From a virus, in IMG/VR virus record IMGVR_UViG_3300032331_001428, positions 1 to 28,223 of that record: a stretch of 28,223 nucleotides of DNA; one strand, written 5' to 3'. Positions within the stretch are counted from its first letter, which is position 1. Each line of letters begins with the position of its first letter. Both the position numbers and the translations under genes were made by a program. This document shows, piece by piece, positions 13,458 through 26,778 of the stretch. The notes below the pieces were generated by a model, which saw only the letters and a program-made list of their open reading frames with translations, was not told the origin of the DNA and made no database searches.

Positions 13458-13482
13458 TAATAGGGCACAAGGCCCTATTATT
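13456..13482. terminator. Bidirectional hairpin terminator between convergent genes
   Basis: Perfect 11-bp stem AATAATAGGGC (13456-13466) and GCCCTATTATT (13472-13482) with loop ACAAG. It lies between the stop of a plus-strand gene and the stop of a minus-strand gene. T-rich sequence follows on both strands, though the runs are short. Confidence 0.78.
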
Positions 13483-13723
13483 ATTTTGAAGCTTTCGGTT
13501 GACGTGGTTTCTTAGCGGCTGGAGCTTTTTTGGCAGCTGGAGCTTTCTTGGCTTTAGCTGGTTTTGCTTCAACTGCTGGTGCAACTGATGTTACCATCGC
13601 TTCTGTAGCTTGAACAGCAACTGGTGTTGCTTCTACTACTGGTGTTTCTACTTTATATGGTGCTTCTGCAACCGGTGCTTCTGCTTTTTTCATACCAAAT
13701 AGTTTTTTAAGTGCATTTAACAT
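13481..13723 (-). CDS. Lys/Ala/Pro-rich histone-tail-like small protein
   Basis: An 80-residue minus-strand protein. The N-terminal 14 residues (MLNALKKLFGMKKA) form a short amphipathic helix. A Val/Ala/Glu/Pro-rich linker follows, and the last 28 residues are a basic tail with tandem KKAPAA units (AKKAPAAKKAPAAKKPRQPK), resembling the C-terminal tails of histone H1 and bacterial histone-like proteins. The tail is encoded by 18-base tandem repeats. AGGAG lies 8 bases before the ATG, and an exact T4 late promoter core sits 19 bases upstream on the same strand. Late expression plus a DNA-binding-type tail suggests a role in DNA packaging or the virion interior. This is inference; low-complexity tails can also be linkers. 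Confidence 0.75.
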   Translation of the reverse strand: MLNALKKLFGMKKAEAPVAEAPYKVETPVVEATPVAVQATEAMVTSVAPAVEAKPAKAKKAPAAKKAPAAKKPRQPKASK

Positions 13724-13742: not shown

Positions 13743-13757
13743 TATTTATAATAAATA
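13743..13757. promoter_or_regulatory. Palindromic, divergent T4-type late promoter cores
   Basis: TATTTAT-A-ATAAATA is a perfect 15-base palindrome. It reads TATAAATA on the minus strand, 19 bases before the basic protein start, and AATAAATA on the plus strand, only 5 bases before the superoxide dismutase ATG. The minus promoter fits the window's fixed spacing; the plus one does not. Confidence 0.65.
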
Positions 13758-13762
13758 CCATT

Positions 13763-14773
13763 ATGTACAACTTTATTAGATACGTTAGCCTAAATGAAGG
13801 CAAACCACCTAAAACTTTAACTCAAGCTATTCTTCCTTACAAAAAGGACGAGTTAGAGCCTGCTATATCTGAAGATACTATCAAGTATCATTATGGCAAA
13901 CTTTACAAGGCCTATGTTGATCGTTTTAATAACGGTGAAGGCGATGCTGACTTTAATGAAGCGGGTGCGTTTTTGCATCATATTTTATTCACTCAATACT
14001 ATGCACCAGTGGCACCGAATCAACCTACAAATATTGCCGAAAATTTTATAAACAAGTATTTTAAAAGTTTTGATAATTTCAAAAACGAATTTGAAAAAGA
14101 AGCTATGAAAATACAAGGTAGCGGATGGGTCTATTTGTCTAGCGATGGCAGTATCAAAACTATTAAAAACCACCAAGTGCGCATGGATATTGTACTCCTA
14201 GTAGATTGGTGGGAACATGCTTGGGCATTAGATTATCAGGCAGATAAGAAAGGGTACCTTGCTAATCAATGGAAAATTATCAACTGGAATATTATTAGTT
14301 CTAGAATTGGAACTAAACATATCGTTAACGAAGATAAGTCTTCTAAAATAGTCATAGTAGGGGATAGTATTGCTGTCGGTGTCGGCAAATTTTTTCCTAA
14401 AGCACATGTAGATGCAATAGTTGGACGTAGCACTAAGGCAATATTATCCGCAGTTGCATCTAATAGAGAAATACAAGGTGCAGATTTAGCAATAGTCAGT
14501 GCCGGTACAAATGATTATCCATTAGCTAATGATGGGAAAAATAACAATCCTCAAGCTACTATTTCAAATATAGAAAGCATTAAAGCTGTACTAAATGCCA
14601 AACAATACATCTGGATATTGCCGTTTAATCGGACTGCCGCGAAAGATGTTAAGTCAGCTATCGACGGAGATGCTAATATTGATTTAGCTGAGATATCGAG
14701 CACTCAAGATAAACTACACCCTATAAGTTATAATCCTGTAGCTAGTGCAATTAAATCTAAAGTTGGTCTATAG
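13763..14773 (+). CDS. Fe/Mn superoxide dismutase fused to SGNH hydrolase
   Basis: A 336-residue two-domain protein. Residues about 19-183 are an Fe/Mn superoxide dismutase with all four metal ligands: His43 (KYHYGK), His73 (AFLHHILF), Asp148 and His152 (DWWEHAW). GSGW is at 119-122, and Gln138 sits near the Mn-type second-sphere position. Residues about 195-336 are an SGNH/GDSL hydrolase: Ser202 in GDSI, GTND at 248-251 and Asp316-x-x-His319 (DKLHP) complete the expected catalytic set. Residues 1-13 (MYNFIRYVSLNEG) precede the dismutase fold and resemble T4 internal-protein capsid-targeting peptides with an LNE|G cleavage site. No ribosome-binding site is visible before the ATG. The 3' end overlaps the convergent zinc-ribbon gene by 17 bases. 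Confidence 0.88.
   Translation: MYNFIRYVSLNEGKPPKTLTQAILPYKKDELEPAISEDTIKYHYGKLYKAYVDRFNNGEGDADFNEAGAFLHHILFTQYYAPVAPNQPTNIAENFINKYFKSFDNFKNEFEKEAMKIQGSGWVYLSSDGSIKTIKNHQVRMDIVLLVDWWEHAWALDYQADKKGYLANQWKIINWNIISSRIGTKHIVNEDKSSKIVIVGDSIAVGVGKFFPKAHVDAIVGRSTKAILSAVASNREIQGADLAIVSAGTNDYPLANDGKNNNPQATISNIESIKAVLNAKQYIWILPFNRTAAKDVKSAIDGDANIDLAEISSTQDKLHPISYNPVASAIKSKVGL

Positions 14774-15103: not shown

Positions 15104-26777
<11,674 letters not shown>

Positions 26778-26778
<1 letters not shown>

Follow-up and report, generated by a model that had tools for sequence, protein, structure and literature searches.

We have found that the 28,223-nucleotide stretch of viral DNA analysed here (the window, a 28-kb virus record) contains a gene that probably encodes late-made capsid cargo of a freshwater T4-related phage, namely a superoxide dismutase (SOD) that would be targeted to the head by an N-terminal leader, cut after Glu12 and ejected together with the DNA. 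More generally, packing of an Fe/Mn SOD in the head behind a short tag that is cut off appears to be common to a very large group of phages from lakes and rivers. The gene is an uninterrupted ORF of 336 aa (13763–14773, ATG at 13763, stop at 14773), in which the leader is followed by the Fe/Mn-SOD domain and then by an SGNH hydrolase domain (Table 1). An earlier note on this DNA, made by reading the letters, had proposed such a SOD-SGNH fusion with an N-terminal leader, and the intact ORF, the Pfam matches, the metal ligands, the SGNH fold and the leader itself all agree with that description.

Table 1 Features in and around the SOD gene of the window. Positions are those of the window; a slash within a sequence marks a predicted protease cut, here and in the text.
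Feature	Position	Strand	Basis
Leader MYNFIRYVSLNE at the N-terminus, residues 1-12; putative propeptide for capsid targeting, with a predicted cut after Glu12	13763..13798	+	motif in relatives, pLDDT
Fe/Mn superoxide dismutase domain (residues about 23-184); ligands H43, H72, D148, H152	13829..14314	+	Pfam, PDB match, Foldseek, alignment
SOD-SGNH linker ..GTKHIVNE/DK..; possible second prohead-protease site after Glu190	14315..14341	+	motif in fusions (putative cleavage)
SGNH/GDSL hydrolase domain (residues about 194-336); S202, G221, N250, D316, H319	14342..14770	+	motifs, pLDDT 91.7, fold
T4-type late-promoter octamer AATAAATA, ends 5 nt before SOD ATG	13750..13757	+	spacing across SOD genes
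Octamer TATAAATA, apparently for divergent gene	13743..13750	-	minus-strand match
Divergent 80-aa gene, Lys/Ala-rich C-terminus (MLNALKKLFGMKKAEAP...), Shine-Dalgarno site, syntenic in G001	13481..13723	-	
IscA/ErpA-like A-type iron-sulfur carrier	15104..15427	+	GGCSG..CGCG motif; conserved neighbour

Both Pfam domains of the Fe/Mn SOD family score above the cut-off in the window protein (Sod_Fe_C, E 2.4e-22; Sod_Fe_N, E 7e-10). Among solved structures, the closest in sequence is a PDB entry for Bacteroides fragilis SodFM2 (E 1e-26), and Foldseek backs the SOD fold (E 4.6e-12). The four metal ligands, which the earlier note had already recognised, are invariant in 208/208 aligned proteins, as is Y51 and also H137 of the second sphere; in the 'LHH' triplet it is the first His that serves as the second ligand, and the position after it is variable. 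With both Pfam domains and the His-His-Asp-His site, the protein is to be classed by its sequence as an Fe/Mn superoxide dismutase (SodFM) with predicted activity. It shares the fold, the four ligands, the Tyr and the second-sphere positions with bacterial SodFM proteins such as B. fragilis SodFM2 and the Porphyromonas gingivalis SOD. The phage SODs differ from these by a shortened N-terminal hairpin and a putative cleavable leader, at about 32% identity.

The leader has been followed through a scan of viral contigs, which gave at least 598 stretches encoding SOD relatives, and through two profile scans, which added more distant ones. Among the matches listed, all of the 80 closest carry MYNFI[RK][HY][IV][ST][LFM]NEG, bar one that is clipped by the contig end. 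The leaders of distant relatives are very different (MNDIRQTLDLLEA, MELRDHINLVEA, MKLNDFLIEA, MKNQIQQLIAVINEA, MYNFIKTIAEG), and when such diverse leaders are compared at the cut, e.g., MYNFIRYVSLNE/G, MNDIRQTLDLLE/A and MKLNDFLIE/A, only a hydrophobic P3 and a Glu at P1 are constant. Actually, the motif [LIVMF]-x-E/[AGS] lies inside the leader in 198 of 207 related SODs with a defined start. After dereplication of the SOD domain at 90, 80 and 70% identity the proportions are 97/104, 42/49 and 20/25, respectively, while the means for shuffled leaders are 7.8, 4.0 and 2.3 (at 80%, a maximum of 9 in 300 shuffles) and windows of equal length from the SOD domain show the motif in about 13%. The alignment of 208 proteins gives the same picture position by position: P3 is L/I/F/M/V in 207/208 and P1 is Glu in 206/208, P2 is unconstrained, and at P1' G, S and A predominate. 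That is, the leader is kept by rule rather than by sequence, and the rule is the (L/I)xE specificity of the gp21 protease that had been proposed for it from the window alone; the leaders of this type that the earlier note suggested looking for in other phage SODs do exist, and so does the same domain fusion (11 of the 80 closest among the matches listed).

It can be asked whether this stretch is protein at all. In 49 distinct DNA versions the leader varies almost solely by synonymous or conservative changes, and the synonymous codon variation rules out an untranslated stretch; the 13-residue leader seen ahead of the SOD fold is thus translated, and its residues 1–10 are predicted to be disordered (pLDDT 24). 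Cellular SOD relatives have no such leader and mostly begin immediately before LPY or behind a hydrophobic, signal-like stretch. The SOD of one Vibrio phage relative is also without it, which is a point against the cargo reading. T4 gp21 cleaves after L/I-X-E, and propeptides of 10 residues suffice for targeting to the T4 head (PMC9026906). Since the P3/P1 pattern of the leaders agrees with this specificity and with these propeptides, we count it for targeting, and the interpretation of the leader as a capsid-targeting propeptide is strongly supported by the sequences, with cleavage at the motif as the predicted consequence. One might instead suppose that the N-terminal extension serves the SOD structurally or in interactions, e.g., as an additional helix at the dimer interface, and resembles a gp21 site by accident. 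The conservation of the extension within the MYNFI subgroup would suit such a role, yet the extension is predicted to be disordered, its length (about 9 to 23 residues) and sequence vary strongly between groups while the cut motif stays constant, and shuffled leaders fail to reproduce the motif, so that we regard this explanation as highly improbable.

A propeptide of this kind calls for a prohead protease. The window, being a 28-kb fragment, has no recognised head genes. Its SOD neighbourhood is syntenic with that of the 161-kb record G001, with the common order of giant protein, IscA-like protein, SOD, divergent small gene, endonuclease and QueD, and G001 encodes a gp21-type protease (Peptidase_S77) beside a T4-type major head protein. 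Peptidase_S77 is also encoded by Pseudomonas phage PA5oct and Vibrio phage 2.275.O (jumbo), and by 11/22 other large SOD-bearing records, including 7/8 of those above 300 kb; the half of these 22 records in which no S77 match was found are probably fragments for the greater part. The gp21-type protease on which the earlier reading depends is present in the syntenic record and in half of the large ones, and the window phage may encode one too.

A point against the cargo reading is that in G001 the SOD gene lies close neither to the head module nor to the principal cluster of genes with leaders. This cluster (G001:101160-114604, L091) consists of large genes with leader-like starts, e.g., MNLRDLMNKLDTIAE/A and MRVKDIVSKFIAE/G, and includes a gene with a peptidoglycan-binding domain and a Dps/ferritin-like gene; it is likely to encode a set of injected proteins. 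As for the other neighbours, an IscA/ErpA-like carrier lies within 3 kb downstream of the SOD in 98/134 loci, and the repetitive protein of 3,782 residues at 15430–26778 of the window is syntenic with a protein of 4,710 residues in G001. Two bacterial assemblies also contain related sequences. In a Methylophilaceae MAG (L275, 89.5-kb contig), a phage-like stretch carries a related SOD split between frames together with ClpS-like, QueD-like and SufC-like genes, which hints at a methylotroph host and at phage iron-sulfur genes. In a Polaromonas MAG from Lac Pavin (L274), a phage-type SOD fragment is joined to an erpA-like gene and followed by bacterial-looking genes, which would reflect a chimeric assembly or, alternatively, past exchange between phage and host.

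Most of the SOD genes also have a T4-type late promoter. NTAAATA occurs within 40 nt upstream in 128/149 SOD genes, compared with 1.4% of random 40-mers, and in 110 of 113 octamer-bearing SOD genes the octamer ends 4–7 nt before the ATG (85 of them at 5 nt). Only 4/134 have a Shine-Dalgarno-like site. The other promoter-bearing genes of G001 show a spacing of 17–30 nt, with one exception, and the PA5oct SOD differs from the freshwater genes in having its octamer about 23 nt upstream. We rejected the idea that the octamer is a by-product of the stop codon of the upstream gene, since the spacing is equal where the upstream gene is divergent. The exact octamer TATAAATA shows no genome-wide enrichment over a reversed control, and the informative form is NATAAATA immediately upstream of genes. 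As the T4 late octamer occupies -13 to -6 (PMC1524935), transcription should start on the A of the ATG, and from the sequences a leaderless late mRNA is predicted for the SOD in most freshwater relatives, which are very divergent phages.

Evidence from virions comes from the cultured Pseudomonas phage PA5oct, whose SOD homologue EST35_0261 is 41% identical to the window SOD. It begins MNDSIKKYISIAEAA, with the leader MNDSIKKYISIAE/A and the cut motif ISIAE/A, and GenBank marks it as detected by mass spectrometry (ESI-MS/MS). Leader-like starts are found in 12/86 detected and 5/170 undetected PA5oct proteins (Fisher p=0.002; all proteins of at least 100 aa in the genome, with detection according to the GenBank annotation). 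The detected list also holds metabolic enzymes such as thymidylate synthase and ribonucleotide reductase, and some of its entries may be co-purified cell proteins; because of these enzymes, the detection is support and not proof. When cultured phages were searched with a freshwater SOD bearing a different type of leader, only the Vibrio phage matched, and the MIJ3 virion study found just four major proteins, the SOD not among them.

Phage-encoded SODs are usually taken as metabolic helpers active late in infection. The SOD might be an ordinary late auxiliary enzyme that is never packaged and shields replication and assembly in the dying cell, with the PA5oct detection due to carry-over. For this role the SOD alone would suffice, the late promoter would be equally expected, and the plainly metabolic enzymes in the PA5oct list would find a simple place. 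What it leaves unexplained is that divergent leaders keep just the hydrophobic-x-Glu-small pattern and that cellular relatives lack the leader, and we therefore hold it to be improbable.

The C-terminal part of the window protein is named just weakly by Pfam and PHROGs. Its Lipase_GDSL_2 match is below the cut-off (E 0.1, 13.5 bits vs 32.9), though this profile score is a convenience test and not a mechanistic requirement, and it was structure prediction that settled the identity. Predicted alone with 12 relatives, this part reaches a pLDDT of 91.7, and the model matches acylhydrolases in Foldseek (E 5e-7) and GDSL/SGNH esterases, including the compact OatA domain, in VIA-align (Z 13–15). The catalytic blocks that had been read from the window, GDS (S202), G221, N250 and HP (H319), are kept in all aligned SGNH relatives. 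As judged from the model, this part is an SGNH hydrolase of a divergent subfamily recognised by its fold, with predicted enzyme activity. It has the compact SGNH fold and the Ser, Gly, Asn and His blocks in common with GDSL acylhydrolases, TesA and the OatA catalytic domain, and unlike them it is fused to a SOD.

This fusion is not the rule. The 11 fused loci correspond to 8 distinct proteins, including that of the window, and the SODs closest to that of the window (92%) lack the fusion. When the fused state is mapped on a tree of SOD domains, 7 changes are required, and well-supported branches force at least 4 of them. Moreover, four SOD proteins (L029-L031, L033) end right behind the SOD-SGNH linker (..FTKVISESKFSKIGR), as expected from a recent-looking loss of the SGNH part. 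Since the fusion is rare and scattered, the general unit is the leader plus SOD. The earlier note had seen the whole fusion as a phage internal protein. The capsid-targeting part of this idea is favoured by the leader rule, the protease of the relatives and the mass spectrometry of PA5oct, and the leader with SOD is widespread; the fusion as a general unit does not stand, being a rare and unstable variant.

The window protein and the 7 other unique fusions all carry the motif [IVL][VI]xE[DGSA] at a corresponding point of the linker. A second cut by the prohead protease is thus possible, and the linker between SOD and SGNH may also be cleaved, which its sequence makes less convincing in the window, where P3 is V and not L/I. 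SGNH relatives occur in other contexts as well. In L097-L099, which are from other phages, they adjoin a peptidoglycan-binding domain (PG_binding_1) behind the start MDLAGKFRQLVE/QQ, resembling another leader-bearing cargo. Two further phage proteins, each some 1,760 residues long (L272:3131-8417 and L273:3122-8420), combine an SGNH domain 56–59% identical to that of the window with dCMP-deaminase and amidoligase domains, and several [LIV]xE[GASN] sites lie between the domains; these are possibly cargo polyproteins cut by the prohead protease. Such contexts suit enzymes directed at the envelope or carried as cargo, and point to no particular substrate.

Based on the above analyses, we infer the following course for the window phage. 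The SOD would be synthesised late in infection and drawn by its leader into the prohead core, where a gp21-type protease would remove the leader after Glu12. The SOD, with its complete metal site, would stay inside the head and be ejected with the DNA, by analogy to T4 internal proteins, and could then reduce the superoxide level of the cell just infected, as suggested by these proteins and by chlorovirus PBCV-1. In the window phage and a few relatives, the SGNH esterase would be extra cargo on the same chain, perhaps freed by the linker cut. Early detoxification of superoxide and hydrolysis of an envelope ester after injection are, by these analogies, plausible functions. A wider proposal is put forward only tentatively: every infection by a major freshwater T4-related lineage would begin with the injection of a redox enzyme, the SOD would be made from a leaderless late mRNA, and the SOD-SGNH polyproteins of some members would be split by the prohead protease within the capsid.

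The main rival concerns the benefit and not the packaging. A packaged SOD could protect the virion by clearing photochemical superoxide in sunlit water before the packaged DNA is damaged, and be dispensable after ejection. The packaging evidence, i.e., the leader rule and the PA5oct ESI-MS/MS, is identical for both; environmental viral contigs contain the SOD group in abundance, and the Dps/ferritin-like gene within the G001 leader-gene cluster would go well with protection. However, this Dps-like protein has no recognisable leader, and T4 internal proteins are ejected (PMC9026906); we consider protection of the virion somewhat unlikely as the main benefit, and keep action after ejection as the preferred reading.

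The likeness to T4, drawn for the window SOD from sequence alone, lies in a short N-terminal propeptide, of about 7–20 residues in such proteins, ending in L/I-x-E as in IPI-III and Alt, in a gp21-family protease and T4-type head proteins (here in relatives), in a late-type promoter, and in cargo that is otherwise non-homologous between phages; the T4 internal proteins are packaged and ejected. Unlike in T4, where the internal proteins are small and basic and Alt is an ADP-ribosyltransferase, the putative cargo is a complete Fe/Mn SOD, joined in the window by an SGNH domain. For the enzyme there is a precedent. The virion of chlorovirus PBCV-1 holds an active Cu/Zn SOD, and superoxide is lower than with a SOD-less virus (PMC7019647). 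This SOD, A245R, is likewise expressed late and found inside the particle of a large DNA virus (PMC7019647); it differs in belonging to the unrelated Cu/Zn family and to a virus of a eukaryotic alga, and a prohead-protease leader is not described there. In the literature searched, whose coverage was incomplete, we found no description of a capsid-targeted SOD in phages and no paper on a phage virion SOD in the context of a prohead protease or internal proteins; the chlorovirus is the one virion-SOD precedent used here.

Overall, leader-targeted cargo is already known from T4 and packaged SOD from chloroviruses. If the phage SOD is packed and delivered with the DNA, the control of superoxide would be part of entry in very common lake phages, and their hosts would answer phage entry with superoxide or suffer from it. 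In addition, the leader rule offers a means of cataloguing, by sequence alone, the proteins that uncultured phages inject.
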